In this document: piece after piece, positions 1 through 21,236 of the stretch
Numbering within the stretch: position 1 is the stretch's first letter
Layout: each line of letters opens with the position of its first letter
Source: Euperipatoides rowelli
Taxonomy: Eukaryota > Onychophora > Udeonychophora > Euonychophora > Peripatopsidae
Assembly: GCA_003024985.2 (NCBI GenBank)
Contig: PXIH01S0006119.1
Reading direction: 5' to 3' (one strand)
DNA: 23,175 bases
The notes under the pieces: generated by a model
Database searches by the model: none
What the model was told of the DNA's origin: nothing
The model's input: only the letters and a program-made list of their open reading frames with translations
Translations under genes and position numbers: made by a program

Positions 1-668
1 AAAAAAAAATTAGCTAATTCTCTTATTTTCTTAAGCCAAAAAATAACAAGAAATATTTGATTTTTCGTTTTTCCATTCTGGCACATTTATTAAAAAAAAA
101 TCAAGATTCTTTATATCAATTTTTGGGACATATTGCAACAAGAACAAGGGAGTAATAAATATATTTATTAATTTTATCACGTAATATGAAAAACTTTGAT
201 GTGCGGTATTATCTGCACCACGGTATTCCCCCCACTTCCCCTACCCCTAATTTGCTACAAAAAATGTATTTGTACCGAACAACTGTGACATATAATGTCA
301 TTTCGCCACAATAGCCAAGAAGCTTGAAAGCAATTATATTTTCTAGTAATATTGTTGGAAAGACAGAAACAAATTTTAAATAATGTCATAAATTTATAAA
401 GTAATCTATTTTAATGTTTTTAAACTCTTTGCTTACCATTTAAAAGTGTCTCACAACACACCAATACAGTGTCTTTTAAATATTACAATCACTCCCCATT
501 TGTCATGTTTNTTTTTTTTTTTTTTTTTTTTTTTTTGTAGTCCAGGAATCATAAAAAAACGGGTATTGTTGAAATAAATAAACACTCAAAACTGTTTGGA
601 AAATTGCATTTTTACTATACCAGGGTGGGAATTATGTGGTCTTTAAGCCACATATAGCTTTTTCTATG
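1..668. other. AT-rich intergenic or intronic DNA, no gene seen
   Basis: No reading frame with coding character is visible. The stretch holds A/T homopolymers, a single N at 511 followed by a run of about 24 T, and a short C-rich patch near 226-246. The N beside poly-T looks like an assembly break at a homopolymer. Nothing else is classifiable. Confidence 0.6.
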
Positions 669-1037
669 TCACTTCCTATAAAAAATTGCTGTTACACTTC
701 TAACACCGTCGCTTATAACTTTGTCAATTGTTGTTGGTTCAACTTGGAAATGATCATAATCAATTAGGAAGGCAGAGATGAAGCCGAAAGCATACTTCTT
801 TTCTCTGTCCCTTCCTGTGCCTTTGGGAACGTTCAGAAATGCTTGGTAAAGTTCTGCAATTTCTGTGAATGACTTCATGAATTTCCATGAGTATTCAGTA
901 ATTTCTGTGAGTATTCGGTAATTTGCATGAGTCAAACTTTTAATCCCATAATGCATCTTAGTGATATGATTGCAACATTCAGTCCAAAAGTCATTTGATT
1001 GATCAATGATGTTCGACATAAGTATTGATGACATCAA
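669..1037 (-). CDS. Candidate coding exon or exon remnant, unrecognised
   Basis: This is one of the longest open frames in the window, at 122 codons, and it is richer in G+C than its surroundings. The frame opens at a TTG at 1037, and the first ATG lies one codon inside, at 1034. An in-frame TAA sits just upstream, so it is either a short open frame or an internal exon whose acceptor AG lies in the few bases before it. The product looks globular and mixed-charge. It has an aromatic-rich N-terminal half (FWTECCNHITKMHYGIKSL) and a basic loop (GTGRDREKKY) in the middle, with no signal peptide or membrane span. I do not recognise a family. A GT that could serve as a weak donor lies at the very end of the frame. 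Against coding, the middle of the frame is built on a DNA repeat of about 20 bp, a period that is not a multiple of three. It may be a genuine exon, a pseudogene fragment or a chance frame. Confidence 0.35.
   Translation of the reverse strand: MMSSILMSNIIDQSNDFWTECCNHITKMHYGIKSLTHANYRILTEITEYSWKFMKSFTEIAELYQAFLNVPKGTGRDREKKYAFGFISAFLIDYDHFQVEPTTIDKVISDGVRSVTAIFYRK
858..932. repeat. Degenerate ~20-22-bp tandem repeat inside the candidate exon
   Basis: Four consecutive segments begin with AATTT and continue with a GTGA or ATGA core, at 858, 880, 900 and 920. The spacings are 22, 20 and 20 bp. On the minus strand this encodes the similar stretches TEITEYSWKF and KSFTEIAEL. Because 20 and 22 are not multiples of three, the repeat does not preserve the reading frame, which weakens the case that the surrounding frame is a conserved exon. 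Confidence 0.5.
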
Positions 1038-2098
1038 ATCTCTTTAATATGCACAAAATTTCCACTTCCAGTTGCAATGCATTGTGCGGCTGAGTTTAAC
1101 ACCTGTTTTCACTCTAGGCTACTTGCAGCTTTTAAGACTATGTTAAACAAAGTGATTTGCAAATAAATCTTTATCGTTTAAAAATCATATGCAACTATTC
1201 ATTCGATGAACGTCTGTAATTTCAATATCAGATGCTGCAACTGAAAAATGTACCATCGTATAAGATTCCTGACCACAATCCAACAGCTTATTTACTTTTC
1301 CCTTAAACAAAATTTTTAATCATAACATTGATATAAATTTTTGAAATCAAAAATTCATTCATAATCATAGGCTATTATTAAAAAGTATATATTAAAGTCA
1401 AATATAAGTTATTTGCAATTAATTTAAAATGTTAAAGCAGAGAAAATATTTTTTTAAAAAGTGTGATAAAAAAATCAAAATTTGCAGTAGTACATAATGG
1501 GAAGTAGTCTTATAGACCATCTTTTCTTTAAAAAAAAATAGGCTACTTATAAATACGATCAAGGAATTTATCATTTGAAAAATGAAATTAACAAGAGTTT
1601 TGAAACAACATATTAATTTCTTAAATATGATGTAGCCTAAATTTTTAAAATAGATTTAAATGTCATATACATAACTTTTTATTTATTAACTTTTTATTCT
1701 GTTTAAAATGACGTGCAGAAAAGTAGCAGTCCTAATTACATTATTTCAAGACAATAAAAAATAAAAACCCACACATTTCGATGAATAATTGACTATAGAT
1801 GAAAAATGTCTTTATAAACTAAATTGAATAAGATTAATTTATTATTTTAAAAAAAGAGCGAGATGAAATCTCTACAGTAATTTTTTTAATTTAGACCAAA
1901 AATTACTCCTGTAGTCGTGCAGGTGTGCTCGATACAACAGATCGGTCTATATTTAGTATAGGCCGTTCACCATGCGGTACTTCCAACTCTATGTAGACCA
2001 AACTAAACAATGATGAAAAACTTTAAGCATTTTTTTTTTTTAATTTTGTGAAAGGTTTATTTCCACTCCCATATTTACACTGCTAAATAACTCTATAA
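1038..2098. other. AT-rich DNA, no gene seen
   Basis: No coding-like frame, RNA gene or recognisable transposon end is visible. Poly-A and poly-T runs are frequent. A less AT-rich patch at about 1910-1985 has no structure I can classify. Confidence 0.55.
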
Positions 2099-2099
2099 C

Positions 2100-2180
2100 T
2101 ATGAATTAATCACAGTTTAATATAAAATTTCCAAATGAATTTCATTTGGAAATTTTATATTAAACCGTGATTAATTCATA
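2100..2180. repeat. 81-bp near-perfect palindrome (foldback)
   Basis: Two 40-bp arms, 2100-2139 and 2141-2180, are reverse complements around a single central base at 2140, with one mismatch (T in one arm against C in the other, near 2115 and 2166). Such a sequence would extrude as a cruciform or form a hairpin in single strands. It may be a tiny foldback MITE or the head-to-head junction of an inverted duplication. An assembly artefact is possible, although the mismatch argues against simple read self-complementarity. Confidence 0.9.
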
Positions 2181-2417
2181 GGAGTCTATGATGGTTTTTC
2201 TAACTTCAGAAATGACATGTTGATGCAATGTGATCATTCTATTGGTTGTCACACGCGATGATCGGATGGAAAGTTCATTCCATTCGACTTACTCGTGACC
2301 AACATTTTGCATATCACAATGACATTAAAACATGTTACATATTCCAAATTGCATAAGTTCTTAGTCAATCATATTGTGTGTGATAGAAATCGTATGCAAA
2401 TCGCTTCATCTAAAATG

Positions 2418-2921
2418 GCCTAGAGCAGTGATAGTGAACTCTATGATGCATGTCACTAGGTGATACTCGAACATAATTTGAATGGCACACCACATGAACA
2501 CATTATGCATTGTGTAGTATTGTCATATAATAAATAGGAAATTATGTCTGTGACAACTAATGCCACCCAAAATATGGGAAGTAGACATAATAGTTTTGTG
2601 AGATTTCTTAGAGAAGATCAGCACCGTATTGTGCAGTCCATCGCATTATACATCAGGAAGCGTTGTACATGAAATCAAGTATTTAGTCTTGTGGAAGTGT
2701 ACTCTTGGTGGTAAATAAGATTGCAAACTTTATATCTGCATATGCTCTAAATAATCGCCAGTTCTCGAAGATGTTAGACGAGATTGATTCTCAATATGGC
2801 GGACTTATGTACAAGAATGTTCACTGGCTGAGTCATGGTGGCACACTAGACATTTGAAAGTAATAAACCAAACTTCAAGTGGACCACTAGTCAAAAAAGG
2901 CTCACCATCACTGGCCTAGAG
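2418..2921 (+). mobile_element. Internally deleted hAT transposon with exact 8-bp TSD
   Basis: The element proper is 2426-2913 (488 bp). Its left end begins CAGTGATAGTGAAC and the reverse complement of its right end begins CAGTGATGGTGAGCC. This matches the hAT terminal pattern CAGTG-TGGCGAACC and the YARNG rule. Direct copies of GCCTAGAG flank it exactly, at 2418-2425 and 2914-2921; 8 bp is the duplication length expected of hAT transposition. The interior retains a decayed transposase fragment in the same orientation. The element is far shorter than an autonomous hAT (usually 2.5-5 kb), so it is a deletion derivative that would need transposase from elsewhere. Confidence 0.92.
2630..2857 (+). 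pseudogene. hAT transposase remnant (GTF2IRD2/ZBED5-like clade)
   Basis: A single plus-strand frame runs through this stretch with one internal stop (TAG at 2684-2686) and a terminal TGA at 2855. The translation contains IIHQEALYMKSS, then after the stop VVNKIANFISAYALNNRQF, MLDEIDSQYGGLMYK and VHWLSHGGTL. The order HQEAL, then an NFI-RQF helix, then LDEID-YG, then WLS-G is the pattern of the catalytic core of hAT transposases that gave rise to domesticated vertebrate genes such as GTF2IRD2 and ZBED5. Only about 75 codons remain of a protein normally near 600 residues, and the N-terminal zinc finger and the C-terminal dimerisation region are missing. It is non-functional. It sits inside the element at 2426-2913. 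Confidence 0.85.
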
Positions 2922-3691
2922 GGTAGAAGTCCTCAGTATGCCTATTTGCAAATGTCACTAAATGACACAACGAGCTTGACTTGAATATTGTTGAAATTAA
3001 GATGTGCTTGAGATCGCTAGTGACAACATACATCTGGAATACTAACTCAAGTTATATTTAAGTAGGTTATAATTTTATCAAAACTTAAGTCAACATGGCG
3101 AAGTGTGTGACCTTTTGATGTCTATAAATGACAAAATGTCACCTATCCCTAGGCTACATTATTTATTTTTAATTATTCAAATTAATTTTACTGCAATAAT
3201 TAAAAATATAAATCGTTCTTTCATTAATATATTTTAATACAGTATGAAAATTTTAATAATTTCCCATCCAAATTGCGGAAAATTTTAGTTTCTTATAAAA
3301 TATGAAGTCATATTAACAGTAATAACGAGAATGACAGAGGATTAAAGTTAATTCATCTTTCAAACTTAAAAAATTTCAATAAAAAAAGGGCAATTCCTTC
3401 AGTTTATTAATTTTGTTTGGTTTTATTTAAATCTTCCCTCATATTAAATTTCTAGCTTGTTTTCATTCTATTATTGAAAGTAATCAGTTTTATAAAAAAA
3501 AATTTAGTTTAGGGCTTTTTTAATATAGGCTGTTATATCTAGTATCTATGTATGAGATGTAGAGCCTATACGGTACAAGTATATAAAATATTGTAATGTT
3601 TTTTGTTTTTTTTTAAACTCCTAGCAAATTTAAAAATAAGACTTTTTATATTAATCTATTCTTTAAAATCATGCAGTCTGGGTTACATAAA
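2922..3691. other. AT-rich DNA, no gene seen
   Basis: No coding-like frame and no repeat ends were recognised. Short homopolymers are common, for example near 3490-3510 and 3600-3615. Confidence 0.5.
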
Positions 3692-3786
3692 ACTGCATGA
3701 ATTTCTGTTTACTCGTTTTTAATCAATTGGCTTCTAGGACTTTACAAAATTGCCACATTCTTAGTATGACGTTTGCTTATAGAACT
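3692..3786. repeat. 95-bp contig-end overlap, identical to 5506-5600
   Basis: This 95-bp stretch ends exactly at the N at 3787 and is identical to 5506-5600, which begins exactly after the N at 5505. Identical sequence abutting two gap symbols is the signature of a shared contig end (k-mer overlap) rather than of a biological duplication. It implies that the sequence before 3787 joins directly to the sequence after 5505. Confidence 0.9.
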
Positions 3787-3787
3787 N
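3787..3787. other. Single-N contig join
   Basis: This N separates the 95-bp overlap at 3692-3786 from an inverted-repeat element that begins abruptly on its other side. It should be read as a gap of unknown size or a misjoin, not as one unknown base. Confidence 0.75.
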
Positions 3788-4220
3788 AAACAACATGGCA
3801 ACAGCCGTAACAGTACACCCTTTTTAAAAAAAAAAAAAATTAAAAAGGAAATATTTATTTCAGAAATACAGGTAATAAAAAGTTCATTCAAGATGTCATA
3901 ATAACCTTTCACATGACCTAGATAATCTTCAGGAATAAAGTTAAAAAATAGATGAAAAAAATAACAACGAATAGCAATTAAAAAATAAGAATAGTAACTT
4001 ATTCATTACTAGAATGTATGATACAATTCTTATTTTTTAATTGTTATTCATTTTTGTTTATTTTCATGTATTTTTTAGCTTTATTTCTGATGATCATATA
4101 TGTTATGTGAAAGGTTTAATGATATCTTGATTGTACTTTTTATTACCTGTATTTCTGAAATAAATATTTCCTTTTTAATTTATTTTTTAAAAAAGGAGTA
4201 TACTGTCACATGTTGTTTTC
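3788..4220. repeat. ~430-bp inverted-repeat (foldback) element
   Basis: The left arm, about 3788-3992, is the reverse complement of the right arm, about 4020-4220, with moderate divergence and small indels. Diagnostic matching blocks are AAACAACATG at the outer end, AAATATTTATTTCAGAAATA with ACAGGTAATAAAAAGT, and CAATTAAAAAATAAGAAT next to the loop. The loop of roughly 30 bp holds no gene. The left arm may be truncated by the N at 3787. No coding capacity is visible. It resembles a foldback-type MITE; the target-site duplication cannot be checked because the left flank is lost at the gap. Confidence 0.85.
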
Positions 4221-4529
4221 TTATTTAAGCCATGCATTTTTTTTTTAAAAAAAATTATTAGCAAATAAAAATTGTTCTTTTTGTTTTGAATCAGAAAATT
4301 TCAAAATGACTTAAGATTTACATAAAATTGAGTTGAATTGAAACCTGCAATTCATTGGCTAAACAGGTATTGCCTGTACACTTATAAATTATCAAATATA
4401 GCTGTACAGTAATAGAAGCAGCCTAAGGTGAGGCCTGTTTCTAACAATTTTTCCCCTCGAGTTGAATCCTGCACAAAGTTGAATAAACTAGAATGCTCTG
4501 TATTCTAAGAACTTTTAAAAAAATATATC

Positions 4530-5375
4530 TGTACATAAGAAGTAACCTAAGATGATGTCGGCTTTTAACTTTAACTTCCACATAAGATTTCCAATAAGTA
4601 CGAGTAAATGAAGCAATCTATGATGTGGACAGCTTCTTACTTTAATTTCCACATAAGATTTCCAATAAGTTAGTATGAGTAGCGAAGCAGTATATGATAT
4701 GGCCAAATTCTAGCTTTAATTTCCACATAAGATTCTAAATATGTACGAGTAACAAAGCAGTCGGCTATATGGGCAGCTTCAACTTTAATTTCCATACAAA
4801 ATTTCCAATAAATATAAGTAACAAAACATTCTGCAATATGGCCAGCTTCCTACCTTAATTTCTACATAAGATTTCCAATATGTACGAGTAACAAAGCAGT
4901 CTGCAATATTGACAGCTTCCAACTTTAATTTCCACATAAGATTTCCAATAAGTATGAGTATCGAAGCAGTCTACCATATGACCAGTTCCTACCTTAATTT
5001 CCACAGAAGATATCCATTAAGTACGAGTAACAAAGCTGTCTGCAATATGGTCAGCTTCCAACTTTAGTTTCTACATACGATTTCCAATATGTACCGGTTT
5101 GAGTAAAGAAGCAATCTGTGATATGATCAGCTTCCAACTTTAGTTTCCACATAAGATATCCAACAAGTATGAGTAACAAAGCAGTTGTGATTGGCCAGCA
5201 TCCAACTTTAGTTTACACATAAGATTTCCAATAAATATTAGTAACGAAGCAGTATGCAATATGGCCAGCTTCAACTTTAGTTTCCACATAAGATTTCCAA
5301 TAAATACGAGTAATGAAACAGTCTCTGATGTGATCAACTTCCAACTTTAATTTCCACATATGATTTCCAATAATT
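4530..5375. repeat. Minisatellite array, ~70-bp unit, about 12 copies
   Basis: The motif CACATAAGATTTCCAATAAG recurs at about 4581, 4652, 4726, 4795, 4865, 4935, 5004, 5074, 5150, 5218, 5287 and 5357, a period near 70 bp. Each unit continues with ACGAGTAACAAAGCAGTCTG and GGCCAGCTTCCAACTTTAAT in degenerate form. Copies differ at many positions, so the array is old. Short open frames on the minus strand here are by-products of the repeat: the period is not a multiple of three and the frames do not persist. In the proposed corrected contig order (see findings) this array would lie inside the hAT-like element bounded by 5891 and 7953. Confidence 0.92.
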
Positions 5376-5380
5376 TAATA

Positions 5381-5504
5381 TTTATCAATTTAGTTTTATT
5401 TTGCTAAATAATGTATTTTTATTTCCTCAAATTTTCTTATTTCATTTAAAAAGGTGTGAAAATCTAAGTTTTATAAATTTTAGAGAACAAACGTCATCTA
5501 TTAC
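5381..5504 (+). repeat. Left arm of foldback element, cut by contig end
   Basis: This stretch is the reverse complement of about 6250-6380, including the block ATTTTGCTAAATAATGTAT (5398-5416) against its complement at 6344-6362. Its last 95 bp (5410-5504) are identical to 6095-6189. The arm therefore belongs with the sequence after the N at 6094, although the scaffold places another 588 bp in between. Confidence 0.85.
5410..5504. repeat. 95-bp contig-end overlap, identical to 6095-6189
   Basis: This 95-bp block ends exactly at the N at 5505 and repeats without difference immediately after the N at 6094. As with the first overlap, the length is exactly 95 bp and both copies abut gap symbols. 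It indicates that the piece 3788-5504 should be joined directly to the sequence starting at 6095. Confidence 0.9.
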
Positions 5505-5600
5505 NACTGCATGAATTTCTGTTTACTCGTTTTTAATCAATTGGCTTCTAGGACTTTACAAAATTGCCACATTCTTAGTATGACGTTTGCTTATAGAACT
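5505..5600. other. Contig join (N) plus 95-bp overlap with 3692-3786
   Basis: The N is at 5505, and 5506-5600 is the second copy of the sequence that precedes the N at 3787. The piece 5506-6093 is thus most simply the direct continuation of the sequence that ends at 3786. Confidence 0.88.
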
Positions 5601-6094
5601 TTAGAAACAAAATAAATTTAAAATTATATTATTCCTACTAAGTCAATAATTATCCTTAATATAGCAATAATGTTAATTTCAACACAGATACAGAACTTAC
5701 ATTAACATCATTTTTCAACATAGTCCCTTTCCCTTTCAACACACTTGTTCCATCATTGCACAATGCACAAGCTTCTTTTTACCCTCAGAAAAAAATGTTC
5801 TCAGCTGAGTAATGAGCCATGAATGCAATGTTTCCTTCACTTCTTGGTCTGAGATGAATCGATGCTCCTTTTTGTGATGGCCCATTACCATAGGGATCCC
5901 AGACGTCCCATATAATACGGGATTGTACCGTATTTCAGAGATGTGTCCCATTGTTCCGACAAGTGTTGTTGAAATGCCAAAATGTCCCATATTTTGAAAT
6001 TGGTTACCCCTTATTTAAAAAATGTATAACTTACGAGAATGTTCGCATCCATTATTTTTTAAATTTAACCTTTTACATTGTTTGTGCGGTTATN

Positions 6095-6380
6095 AATGTA
6101 TTTTTATTTCCTCAAATTTTCTTATTTCATTTAAAAAGGTGTGAAAATCTAAGTTTTATAAATTTTAGAGAACAAACGTCATCTATTACATCATTTAAAC
6201 ACAAATTAAAGCCGACACCAAATGTCTGCTTTGATTTATGTTTAAGATGATGTAATAGATGACATCACACTATTTTCTAAAATTGTACAAACTTTGATTT
6301 TAACACCATTTTAAATGAACTAAGAAAATTTTATGAATTACACATACATTATTTAGCAAAATATAACTAAATTATTGAAA
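6095..6380. repeat. Foldback element (right arm, loop and repeated left arm)
   Basis: The left arm at 6095-6215 pairs with the right arm at about 6228-6380. Matching blocks include ATCTATTACATCAT (6181-6194) against its complement near 6248-6261, and AAATTTTCTTATTTC against AACTAAGAAAATTTT. The apex is near 6213-6228. The arms are diverged, so it is old. A related copy lies at 19210-19372 and 21237-21420, so this is a dispersed family. No protein is encoded; frames found here follow the inverted repeat. Confidence 0.82.
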
Positions 6381-6780
6381 CGTTGAAAATAACATTGAAA
6401 ATACACTTTAAAAACAAGACATCAGTACCTTTATCATGTGATTTTTGTCCTGAGAGAGAAACGTTGAAACATAGGCCTACTGTATATTAATTGGCTGCAT
6501 GTACTTCTTTGTGGTGCAGAATTGATTTTTTCGTTTGGTATGAAGTACAAACGGTCATAAATATGTTAATGATTTTTTGCTCACTGGCTAGGAAACAAAA
6601 AAATACACCTTTCTATTGTTCCTTTTCTATTTTTTGTGTTGGAAAGTTTAAAATAACTTATCGCTGTGACTTCAAATATTTTACATTTGAATTGTTTAAT
6701 GAAAAATTGGTGTCATGTTGATCTAAACAGTCAGTAGCAATTTTTGGATGATCCTTTAATGATAAAATATTCCCTATGGA

Positions 6781-6806
6781 AGTGTGTGTGTGTGGGGGGG
6801 GGGGGG
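6781..6806. repeat. GT/poly-G simple repeat
   Basis: An alternating GT tract of about 12 bases runs directly into a G homopolymer of about 14 bases. It is a simple sequence with no coding meaning; the proline-rich frame on the other strand is a by-product. Confidence 0.9.
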
Positions 6807-7019
6807 AACCAGAAACAATATTTATATATCTAACTTTTGACATTCGTATTTTCGTTAAAATTACTAGTTTATTTATCTTTCTTCTTCTGGTTTAAAAAAA
6901 TTGAATTTTTTTTTGTATGAAATTTGTAATATAGGAAAATATACTTATGTTTTATATGTAATCTGCATTTAATGATGGTAGTGCATTTTATTTAACTTAT
7001 TTATTAATCAATACTAACT

Positions 7020-7200
7020 ACTACGGTTCTTAGAGAACCAACGTACTGAGTTAAAAAAAACTCTGGCAAGGTGTTGTAAGCCAGGGAAAAAAAACGTTCC
7101 AAAGCTGGCTCGACTAACCCGCGAACCTGGAATGTCACAGCTTATGTCTTCGCCCTCGCTTATGTCATTACTACAGACTGGACCACAAGGACGGGATGAT
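7020..7200. repeat. GC-richer unclassified repeat-like island
   Basis: The composition changes abruptly from the AT-rich surroundings. It begins near the palindrome GGTTCTTAGAGAACC (7025-7039), continues with a hairpin CTGGC-loop-GCCAG near 7064-7085, and ends with the internally repeated words GCTTATGTC (7141 and 7159). On the minus strand a GGTTCGCGGGTTAG stretch vaguely resembles a pol III B box, but I see no convincing A box. It may be a SINE tail or a piece of an unknown transposon. No gene is supported. Confidence 0.45.
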
Positions 7201-7765
7201 ATATAAGTTTTATTTTATTTTTATTGATCAGGATACTACTATTTGGATACTAATTTCCTTTTTTTTTTTTTAGAAAGACGGTGTTAACAAAGTGTCAGTC
7301 ATTTTAAATAAATTTTTATGGGATAGTAAATTAATCCATTTATTTAAAAAAAAAGACTGTATTACCTATATATTTTTTGAAAACTTAATTTTCATGGTTT
7401 GGCCAATGCGAATTAAATTGTGTTATTCAATACAGTGATTAATTTGGTCAATTTACTGTGAAAAATATTAAGGAGATTCAACCGACTGATACTCCTCCTC
7501 CGAATCAAAATATGGATTNGTGTATCCTTTGTAATTTGAAACAAACAAACAACAACAAAAAATAACACTAATGTTATAAAATCTAGTATTCCAGCATAGT
7601 GAAGCTTTATCATAATATCTGGAATGGCGAAATTTGTGTACTTGCGCATGCGATGTTCATAATTATTTGCTTCTGCTAGGTGGAGCCGCCACCATAATCA
7701 ATTGAAATGTTTTCTGTTGTTCATGTCTCGGTCGCACGATACTCCGGATATAATTTAAAAAAAAA

Positions 7766-7925
7766 GGAAATCCCCCCCCCCCCCCTCCCAGAAAAAAATG
7801 TGAAAAAAGTAATCCCCCCCCGGAAAAAATGTGAAAAAAGAAATAACCCCCCTACCCCGGAAAAAAATGTGAAAAAAGTAATACCCCAGCCCCCCCCCTC
7901 TTCCCCGGAAAAAAAAGTGTCCCTT
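7766..7925. repeat. C-rich/A-rich tandem repeat, ~4 copies of ~35 bp
   Basis: The unit is a C run, then GGAAAAAATGTGAAAAAAG, then TAAT. It repeats with starts near 7770, 7814, 7847 and 7884, with variable numbers of C and A. It lies immediately inside the right terminus of the hAT-like element (7953) and may be a subterminal repeat of it. The proline- and lysine-rich frames on the plus strand and the glycine- and phenylalanine-rich frames on the minus strand are translations of this repeat, not genes. Confidence 0.88.
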
Positions 7926-7961
7926 ATTTTTTTAAAAAAATCTGGGATCCCTACATTACCA

Positions 7962-10100
7962 TAATGATCCAAATGTTGTTGGCAGGATTAATGACACACT
8001 ATTTTAAATCAATATATGATTTGGACATTTTCAGATTTACACAATCTATATATTAATACGTGAAGGGAAAACTTTGAATCCCTTTTTAAGCATATTGGGC
8101 GCACGGAGGAGTGTGAGATTTGGCAGAGTTAAAATTTATATGGAGAGGGAGTCCAATGAGCTAAAATTTATATATAAAATTAAAACATTCATTGTTTAGC
8201 ATTGTGGCGGCTTTTTACAAAGGAAATTTTCTTATTGGTCGAATTTCGGCCAACACTGGATTACTAGTTCTAACTTATGTATTGTATTAGCTTTATTTTA
8301 AAGATAAATTTTTCAATAGTGTGTGCAATGAGAAAATTTGATGATTTAAGTGATGGATTTAATTTAGTGAATATCGATAAAATGCCTTATTTGTTATTTT
8401 TGAAACTTTAAAAAATTACAGTAGGCTAAATATTGATAAATTGAGGTTTTAGAATAGGATTATGAAAATGACCATTGTAAGGTTGATGATATCATCGTTG
8501 GTAAATTTTGTTTTTAGATTAAATATCGTAATGCCTAAAGATTTTTTAATTGAGCGATTCAGACTCAATATGGCCTCACAATGTCAATTTTGTGAGTTTG
8601 ATAAATCTATTGAACGCTACTGCTAGCTGTAATTTTTTTTCGATGTGTTCTATAAATATGCTTATTAATGTAAAGGTTTTTTTTTTATGTTTGACACATA
8701 TGTGGAAAGTTTTTTTTTTTATTCATCTTTTTTCATATATTATGGAAGATAAGATGTTATAATACAATATTTCAGAATTTTAGTTAGATTCATTGAAAGT
8801 ATTATATTTGTCAGATTAAAGAGATTTATTTGTTTGACATCAAATATTTAAATTTTGGTATTTTTAATAAATGAAATAACAAAACTATTAAAAAATTGTT
8901 GATTTAAATAGATCAACATTTTGTAAAAATTTGTAAAACGATAAATATTATGTAGGACTAATGATTCATAAGATGTATAGTAAATTTAGGATTTTATTTA
9001 TTTATTTATTTCATTAAAAAGATTTGTATTTTATATGATTTTTTTTTTACACGAGTTATTATTTAAAAAAGTTGTTAGGGAGGAGGGGGGGGTAAGATCC
9101 CCTTTGCAAAATAAAATAATAATAATAATTCTATTCTTCTGTCAATATGTTCTTATTTTTTTACAATAAAAAGTTAAAAAAAAAAAAATAGCATCTATGG
9201 CCGCAACATTTGTAGCAATCAAATTTAATATTTATTTATTGCTTGGTTCACCTTTTAGATAGGCTGATTTGAAAACGATTCATAAAAGCTTAAATAATAT
9301 TTATTATAACAATCAATAAAATGTTTATAAATAATATTTAAAAAATAATAATAAATAATTTCTTATTAAAAAACAAATAATAATCAATTAAAGTTTTAGT
9401 GCATTTTCTTACCTTAAAATAAAAGATACACACATTCACACACATACAAAAAAAAGACATTTTATATACCTGTATATGTCTGAAGCCAGTTATTTAAAAA
9501 TATCAATAAATTTAATAATGATGTAAAAGTTTTAAATAATGAGTAAAAGAAACAGCACTGATTTCTTAAATAATTGTACAAATTAACACTTACATGCATG
9601 ATCCATATTTTACCTGGACAGGTATATTATTCTTTCAGGTGTCAATTTGTAAAGAATTTATTATGATCAAATTTTATACCTACTCAAGCTGAAAAAGCTT
9701 TCTTTGTAAACCTTCCTTTAATAAGAATAATAAGAATAAATAAGAATAAAAAAAACCTTGAAATAAATTTTAAATTACACTATTTCTAAAGAGAAGAAAA
9801 CTGTGTCACATTTTAGACATGTATATAAAGATTGCTGAGTTGTAAATTACTTCCTTGTAGATAAGATAATATTAATGGTTGATTATATCAAGATTAAAGA
9901 TATAACAATGGAATTTAAACTGGATAGAAAAAGAAAAAAAAAACCGGTAGTTTTTGCTAGTTGCAGAAAATAAATTGTAGTCATAAATCATTTTCATACT
10001 AATTAATTAAACTTCTGAAATTGAAGTCAATTTACACAGTAGCCTACATTAATTTGCAAACTTGTCAAGTTGTAGGAAGGAAAATAGTAGAATGTTCTAT
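7962..10100. other. AT-rich DNA, no gene seen
   Basis: Long A/T homopolymers, TAA/AATAAT microsatellites (about 9112-9129 and 9720-9750), a G-rich tract at 9077-9092 and a run of AT-only sequence at 9290-9380 are present. I see no transposon ends or coding-like frames. A slightly GC-richer patch at 8095-8260 is unclassified. Confidence 0.5.
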
Positions 10101-10106
10101 ATCTAT

Positions 10107-10760
10107 GAACAGGTGAAGTAATTTAGATATTTGGGAAGTTTGATAACTGAAGATGGACGAACCACATAAGAAATTTGAACTTGAATAGGAATTTCAAAAT
10201 CTGCATTTTAGAAACAAAAAGAACTTCTAAGAAGAGACATTAACAAACATTTAAAATTGAAGCTGTTAAAATGGTATGTTTGGTCTGTTTTCTTATAAGG
10301 ATGCGAGACTTTGACTTTAACCAAAGACTTGGAAAAGAAGATCAATGTGATTGATATCTGATGTGCAAGAAGAATGTTGAAAATAAAATGGCCAGATTTG
10401 GTCAGAAATGAGGAAGTGTGGAAAAGATGGAGAGGAGGTTATAGTCTTTTGGATGAAGTAAGGAAGAGGAAGTGTGGAAAAGATGTGGAGGTGGTTATAG
10501 TCTTTTGGATGAAGTAAGGAAGAGGAAATGGAAATAGCCTGGGCATGTCTTGAGAGGATCTGCAGAAATTAGACTAGTAACAGCACTTATGGATGGACAG
10601 AAAGGAAAAAATAAGAGGAAGACCAAAAAGAGAATGGTTGGATGCCCTTAAGGACTGGGCTAACATCAGGCAATTCTCTGTATTAAAAAGATCTCAAGTT
10701 ATAAATTGTTGGCAATCCATGCATGTGAACCTCTGCCTCGGAAAATGCATCCAATTATGA
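10107..10760 (+). pseudogene. Non-LTR retrotransposon reverse transcriptase, C-terminal remnant
   Basis: The plus-strand frame starting at 10107 reads through about 110 codons with several stops but no frameshift. It contains RYLGSLITEDGRTT, then KYVW-like KWYVWSVFL, GCETLTLTKDLEKKI, RRMLKIKWPDLVRNEEV and KRW. After a 56-bp duplication come GHVLRGS and, in a shifted frame from 10611, RGRPKREWLDALKDWANIRQ, ending at a TGA at 10758-10760. The order YLGS-IT-DG, then YVWS-GCET-TL, then RRML-I-W-NEEV, then GHVLRG, then RGRP-WLD is the typical post-polymerase C-terminal tail of endonuclease/reverse-transcriptase LINEs such as the RTE group. The catalytic palm with FADD and the endonuclease are absent, consistent with either 5' truncation or decay. 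It is non-functional. Exact clade assignment is uncertain. Confidence 0.85.
10410..10531. repeat. 56-bp tandem duplication within the LINE remnant
   Basis: GAGGAAGTGTGGAAAAGATG recurs at 10410 and 10466, and a third partial copy, GAGGAAATGG, starts at 10522. The period is 56 bp. The intervening text, GGTTATAGTCTTTTGGATGA, is also duplicated. The period is not a multiple of three, so the duplication breaks the ancestral frame and occurred after the copy became inactive. Confidence 0.93.
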
Positions 10761-11370
10761 TTCAAGTTGTAAATTAGTTTACCCCTTCTCCATAAGTTGA
10801 ATCAGTTTGGTCAAGTTTTGTAGTAAGTTTATANTGTTTTGAAGGAGAACAAATAAGAAAGATGTGTGCATTATAGATGTGTCGATACTACCAAAACTGG
10901 TACTTTAACAAATATAAAATGTAACGAGTATATTTAATCGATACATGTTGATATTAGTCAATATACAGTCATACTACAGGTCCCTTGCGATTGATCATGA
11001 GTCCCGACTTTCATTCTCCTTACCATCATCAATACTCATTAAAGCTTTCATCATTAGTTACAAATAGTAAGTACTACTACTATACTACTTGGTTGGTTCA
11101 ACTTGTTTGGCGAGCCTAGTTGGGTAACCAACTTGGGTTTATGGTTCCATATAATTATGGTTCATTCATTAGTTTTTAATGCTTTTTCTTTAATACTGCC
11201 AACTCACATTTTTTTATAAAAGAAAATTAATTATCTACAATATGTACAAAGATCAATGATTAGATTCTTCTATCTCAAATACACAATCGTTGGGTTTCAT
11301 ATGTAATCTTTGACTGCTACGAAAAAATCCAATTTTGTTTGAAAACTAATGGTACCTATATATATAAAGA
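10761..11370. other. AT-rich DNA, no gene seen
   Basis: The stretch contains a single N at 10834 and a CTACTACTATACTACT-like simple stretch near 11071-11087. Words such as TGTGTCGATACT (10877-10888) and TTAATCGATAC (10935-10945) suggest a small worn transposon fragment, but no termini or duplications were found. Confidence 0.45.
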
Positions 11371-20853: not shown

Positions 20854-21236
20854 TGAATTTTGCATTTAGAGTGCATAAAACTTAACTAAACAATAAATTA
20901 AAAAAATCTAGTAAGTTCCCATGCTCCCTTGACCCCAGTGTGGGGCTGAATGCCCTAGACTCCCCCACCACACAATTTACTGTCCTGGATTTCCACTTTG
21001 AACATATGGCAACCCTAGTCCTAGTGTCATGCCACTTTTTTGTTTTGTTTGAGAACGTCTCAATAAATTTTNTGAATTTTGCATTTAGAGTGCATAAAAC
21101 TTAACTAAACAATAAATTAAAAAATATGGGATATTCCCATGCTCCCTTGACCCCAGTGCAGGGCTGAATGCCCTAGACTCCCCCACCCTCACAGTTTATT
21201 GTCCTGGATTTCCACTTTGAACATATGGCAACCCTA
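20854..21236. repeat. 164-bp direct repeat pair around the N at 21072
   Basis: Copies lie at 20854-21017 and 21073-21236. Both begin TGAATTTTGCATTTAGAGTG and end ACATATGGCAACCCTA, with scattered differences such as GTGTGGGGCTG against GTGCAGGGCTG. The second copy begins directly after the N. Two alleles placed side by side at a contig join, or a real terminal duplication of the hAT-like element, would both explain this. Confidence 0.9.

Follow-up and report, generated by a model that had tools for sequence, protein, structure and literature searches.

When exact copies of contig ends are printed on pieces that are not neighbours, is the printed order of those pieces to be trusted? This question is raised by a window of 23,175 nucleotides from the onychophoran Euperipatoides rowelli, the whole stretch of DNA analysed here, which forms the end of scaffold C1343 (positions 2609-25783 of 25783) and was compared with 100.9 Mb of the genome in 4324 contigs. 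Ten single Ns divide the window into 11 pieces; the pieces A, B, C and D, each delimited by single Ns, and the next piece, E, are the ones of concern (Table 1). The window is poor in G+C (0.28 to 0.33 depending on the piece) and its longest open frame is of at most 137 codons. Five open frames gave no match in Pfam at E up to 1, and a scan of Rfam gave none at gathering scores. We conclude that, from 3787 to about 7961, the pieces are probably printed in a wrong order.

Table 1. Pieces, overlap copies and element ends discussed in the text (positions in the window).
Feature	Position	Strand	Remarks
Piece A	512-3786	+	Last 95 bases (3692-3786) are the likely contig-end overlap with C, inside a short repeat family
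Single N	3787		Probably false A/B adjacency; A/B crossed by 0 of 70 other loci
Piece B	3788-5504	+	Foldback element, tandem array of about 70 bp units, left part of second foldback element
Piece C	5506-6093	+	Complete short repeat begun by the end of A, mariner-like remnant (minus strand), hAT-like left end
Piece D	6095-7518	+	Begins within second foldback element; its right arm; many-copy repeat 6958-7196
Piece E	7520-10833		Next piece after D; holds hAT-like right end
Overlap 1, A's copy	3692-3786	+	Identical to 5506-5600
Overlap 1, C's copy	5506-5600	+	
Overlap 2, B's copy	5410-5504	+	Identical to 6095-6189
Overlap 2, D's copy	6095-6189	+	
Left target-site duplication CATTACCA	5883-5890	+	
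hAT-like left 203 bp	5891-6093	+	Begins with terminal repeat TAGGGATCCCAGA (5891-5903); truncated where C ends
hAT-like right part	7520-7953	+	Start of E; BLAST matches from 7688; terminal repeat TCTGGGATCCCTA at 7941-7953
Right target-site duplication CATTACCA	7954-7961	+	

Two exact identities of 95 bp at piece ends

The first-pass annotation had reported that the end of A equals the start of C and the end of B the start of D, over 95 bp each, and both identities proved exact. It had also described each copy as abutting an N, which is true of one side per copy: those of A and B end at an N, while those of C and D begin after one. When the suffix of each piece was compared with the prefix of every other (12-299 bp, both orientations, 11 pieces), these two were the sole exact end overlaps, so that two overlaps out of two share the single length of 95 bp. 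Among the 20 flanks of 95 bp next to Ns, the four overlap copies alone occur twice in the window.

That two exact repeats of equal length should each touch an N by chance is, in our judgement, not plausible. Real biological duplications would also leave exact copies of 95 bp, but two unrelated sequences would have to share the same duplicated length, and an assembly N would have to mark the exact point at which each copy stops or starts; we give this explanation a practically negligible probability; chance and biological duplication were both rejected on the equal lengths and the Ns. False duplication of diverged haplotypes, described in PMC2864568, is similar in that sequence is duplicated in the assembly and not in the genome. 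However, it concerns polymorphic regions that were assembled twice, whereas the copies found here are 100% identical, not diverged, and short, with the one fixed length of 95 bp, and it was rejected for the 95-mers.

Since unrelated sequences share one duplicated length and each stops at an N, a fixed overlap length is indicated, and the two 95-mers likely stem from a de Bruijn assembler, as contig-end overlaps that stayed unmerged. In such graphs, edges between neighbouring nodes are overlaps of k-1 bases and contigs break at unresolved repeats (PMC5368935, PMC9215042), which is the same pattern as here. PMC5368935 gives two usages, one in which k denotes the length of a node and one in which K denotes the overlap. 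With the assembler type deduced from the overlaps and their length from two cases, 95 bases likely mean k = 96 in the first usage and K = 95 in the second; the earlier estimate of a k near 96 fits the former and is refined by the latter. The scaffolders treated in these two sources merge overlapping neighbours or place the gap beside the non-overlapping part, whereas in this scaffold both copies stand on non-neighbours. A wrong order betrayed by overlaps on pieces that are not neighbours is a case for which we found no description in the accessible text of PMC5368935 and PMC9215042.

The other loci fetched from the genome, each of about 1.6 to 10 kb and together about 210 kb if overlapping parts are counted, include 21 distinct single Ns. 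They contained no 30-bp flank of an N duplicated within its own locus, and no end overlap of at least 15 bp between pieces of one locus. Their Ns are all single apart from ten runs of at least 356 bases, so this assembly does not seem to record how long its gaps are. Some scaffolders write one N for a negative gap. In one locus (L011, 2843-2860) two single Ns enclose only 16 Cs, so not every single N here stands for a join of contigs longer than k.

Another N of the window, at 21072, is flanked by a repeat pair (20854-21017 and 21073-21236, 93% alike), the right copy of which begins at the first base of its piece. The likeness to other genome copies of this repeat is 71 to 74% across roughly its first 164 bases and 80 to 87% where shorter parts of it match; these copies suggest that the pair belongs to a repeat family and is not clearly an allele laid out twice.

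Repeat copies elsewhere and the joins A-C and B-D

Exact overlaps are informative about adjacency only up to a point. Repeats of at least k-1 bases also create false graph edges (PMC9215042), and for this reason an exact overlap together with likeness to a repeat family does not by itself prove that two pieces are adjacent. We compared 440 ordered and oriented joins of piece ends, with 150 bp per side and the overlap counted once for A/C and B/D, with 70 loci elsewhere in the genome, and a join was counted when a locus aligned over at least 20 bp on each side of the border; of a join and its reverse, each tests one border of the overlap. Most of the loci had been retrieved with the end of B and with C as queries, a choice that favours those families, and they are not 70 independent places, as they include overlapping or mirrored pairs (L029/L061, L060/L066, L045/L046). 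The first 95 bases of D equal the end of B and were effectively in the query, while its further sequence was outside.

The join B/D stands out in this comparison. From the overlap into D proper run 27 of the 70 loci, from B proper into the overlap 31, and 31 cross in either sense; among the loci fetched with the end of B, 26 of 28 continue into D proper. Every other join was found in at most 4 of the 70 loci and 411 joins in none, the counts being 0 for A/B, B/C, C/B and D/E and 2 for C/D. In a separate run with 300 bp per side and 60 loci the counts were 28 for B/D, 2 for A/C, 1 for B/C and 0 for both A/B and C/D. The adjacency of B and D is thus strongly backed by repeat copies elsewhere as well as by the overlap.

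The sequence around this join is made of repeats. B contains a first foldback element, with inverted arms within 3807-4209, and a tandem array at 4567-5373 with units of about 70 bp (11.4 copies, 77% matches); for the query 4230-5380 one other genome match was listed, 73% identical over 4249-4648. A second foldback element has its left part from about 5381 in B and its right arm to about 6414 in D, and B ends inside it, in keeping with contig breaks that fall in repeats. Once B and D are joined, the sequence folds back over 5387-5504 plus 6190-6373 with 307 aligned columns at 81%, and D alone gives 261 columns at 79%. On the side of B, the outermost bases that other copies of the element possess are missing, so that B/D offers no target site to compare. 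Further into D, 6958-7196 is a dispersed many-copy repeat, with at least 40 matches besides its own among the best 40 of 92 candidates.

The join A-C shows another picture. The repeat at the end of A matches four other loci, beginning at 3693 (L005), 3694 (L004), 3700 (L003) and 3716 (L006). Since family matches begin at about 3693, A ends some 95 bases inside this short repeat, a point at which a graph would branch. On the side of C, 2 of 70 loci (L003 and L006) run from the overlap into C proper; L005 passes the end of A, and of the overlap, by 13 bp and L004 ends 2 bp before that border. On the side of A, the number of loci that cross into the overlap from A proper is 0 of 70, since this is where the repeat sets in. 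The join rests mainly on the 95-bp overlap, with weak backing from repeat copies. In this sense, the order A-C-gap-B-D proposed in the first-pass annotation holds unevenly: its B-D part has strong backing in the counts given above, its A-C part is carried by the overlap more than by the 2 of 70 loci, and the step that puts B-D after C is one that we infer.

It could also be argued that the ends of A and B are repeat copies that merely share at least 95 bases with the starts of C and D, which would make both graph edges false. All four ends do lie in repeat families, and repeats of k-1 bases can give such edges (PMC9215042). However, false partners would be expected genome-wide, yet the two pairs found here occur in a single scaffold within 2.5 kb. 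Moreover, the other copies listed of the end of A are 72 to 76% identical, with no exact one among the matches listed, and those of the end of B reach at most 94% over 66 bases, again with no exact one among the best 40 of 223 candidates. We therefore regard false edges as highly improbable and retain true k-1 overlaps as the preferred reading.

A hAT-like element with one end in C and, most likely, the other in E

A link that goes beyond the first-pass annotation is provided by a transposable element. C and E carry the ends of what we take to be a hAT-like element, a label given from its 8-bp target site and its TAGGG-type ends. hAT elements make 8-bp target-site duplications, and the C-E element resembles non-autonomous hAT elements in this and in its short terminal inverted repeats, which are of 13 bp without mismatch. 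Across the whole window, with up to 2 mismatches tolerated, there is a single terminal repeat of the left type, in C, and a single one of the right type, in E; both have 0 mismatches. The 8-bp flanks of the two ends match at 8 of 8 positions, a match that was found in 102 of 1,000,000 random pairs of 8-mers at distinct places of the window. In the fetched loci there are 14 end pairs of the family, and in 7 of them the flanks agree at 6 or more of 8 bases, compared with 5 of 140 controls that were shifted; as L045 and L046 are exact mirror copies, the distinct count is 6 of 13. These flanks suggest that the family makes 8-bp target-site duplications. Fifteen matches in other loci (two of them the same sequence repeated) reach the end of C or nearly so and continue, mostly with shared sequence. 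The lengths of six other copies whose flanks match range from 453 to 1316 bp. A search for the target sequence continuing from C into E beyond the element gave no locus that matched both sides. Most likely, C and E are the two sides of one insertion; from the matching ends and target sites, C would stand upstream of E in the same orientation, and all that is between them would lie inside the element. C also holds, at 5736-5990 on the minus strand, a remnant resembling the end of a mariner transposase, with a weak match to Mos1 (E 1.4).

In a test of 22 oriented piece starts against the sequence after the end point of C in 14 other copies of the element, the start of D ranks first (0 of 100 shuffles as high) and that of B second (2 of 100). 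The lead of D, if anything, would speak for the printed C-D and against an order A-C-B-D-E, and we suspect that its source is a short motif also present in the foldback element of D; the second rank of B would weakly favour the order that we propose. Against L053, in one of 24 comparisons, the first 150 bases of B score 39, whereas 100 plain shuffles reached 30 at best and none of 500 dinucleotide shuffles scored as high. Against L046 they score 31 (best plain shuffle 30; 6 of 500 dinucleotide shuffles as high), and the match is an A/T run. Such likeness appears too weak to place B. None of the comparisons of the last 150 bases of D with the element interior exceeded the best shuffle.

The two overlaps alone would also fit B and C as two alleles between A and D (A-C-gap-D and A-gap-B-D) that were laid out in series, since C joins A and B joins D, and the best score of the start of D as the sequence following C points the same way. 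Nevertheless, B and C have no likeness in the self-comparison of the window, the allele with B would keep the right end of the element in E without its left end, and no near-identical second copy was listed that covered the whole of the end of A, the start of B, the middle of B, C, D or the start of E (some of them among the best 40 candidates). Two alleles in series are thus quite improbable.

Proposed order and its possible origin

When A-C is taken from its overlap, C before E from the element, and B-D from its overlap and its repeat family, the order becomes A-C-gap-B-D-gap-E, which would be the smallest change to the scaffold, one swap of neighbours, that satisfies all three links. On sequence comparison, we consider it highly probable that the 95-mers are k-1 overlaps and not genomic duplicates and that the scaffold is misordered; its pieces most likely run in this order, with B-D within the hAT-like element. 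The position of B-D between C and E is a placement that we infer and hold to be fairly likely. The stretch affected, given earlier as 3787-6094, is probably wrongly ordered there and reaches to 7961, since one element with matching target sites ties C to E.

It is possible, if rather unlikely, that A-C-E is the true sequence, that the element closes between C and E, and that B-D belongs before A, after E or on another scaffold. Both ends of the element, with matching target sites, are in C and E, and the parts in these pieces make 637 bp plus the gap, within the range of the other copies, whereas with B-D inside it would exceed 3.6 kb; set against the 453 to 1316 bp of the copies whose flanks match, this is long, so B-D could lie elsewhere. 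On the other hand, the first 121 bases of E (7520-7640) match the interiors of six copies no better than the best shuffle does, which fits foreign DNA such as B-D already sitting inside the element; 7641-7700 is likewise not above shuffles. In addition, removing B-D would imply a larger scaffolding error than a swap of neighbours. Another explanation would be that B-D, with about 3 kb, its own foldback elements and the 70-bp array, is an insertion within the hAT-like element that only some chromosomes of the individual carry, and that the scaffolder interleaved two true alleles; this seems unlikely to us.

If the order A-C-gap-B-D-gap-E is correct, a possible explanation for the printed one may be that de Bruijn contigs broke in repeats, A in the short repeat family and B in the foldback element, and that paired-read scaffolding, presumably the step at fault, interchanged two short pieces, B of 1.7 kb and C of 0.6 kb. 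With B and C in this order neither overlapping pair was adjacent, so neither would have been merged and one N would have come to stand at each join, while B-D would truly lie inside the element that begins in C and ends in E. Incorrect joins and skipped contigs are among the errors of scaffolders in PMC4053845, which likewise concerns paired-read scaffolding errors in joining contigs; there, tools were scored on test genomes (S. aureus, P. falciparum and human chromosome 14), whereas the evidence here is internal to one scaffold.

The finding is an ordinary assembly artefact and not biology, and gene structure, repeats and synteny across 3787-7961 of this scaffold are not to be read as printed. 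For draft assemblies, exact overlaps of equal length between pieces that are not neighbours offer a cheap check, since they betray misordering; even without reads, the order of pieces can be tested with transposon ends whose target sites match.

Two further observations concern inverted sequence. In piece A, 2099-2181 is self-complementary (96% over 83 bp). Contig C3917, which contains L045, L046 and L087, has 11,249 bases and forms a mirror image around its midpoint. Its stretch 786-3978 recurs exactly, as reverse complement, at 7272-10464, while the central 1001 bases differ from their own reverse complement at 93 positions. This mirror is possibly an artefact of assembly in the form of an inverted duplication.
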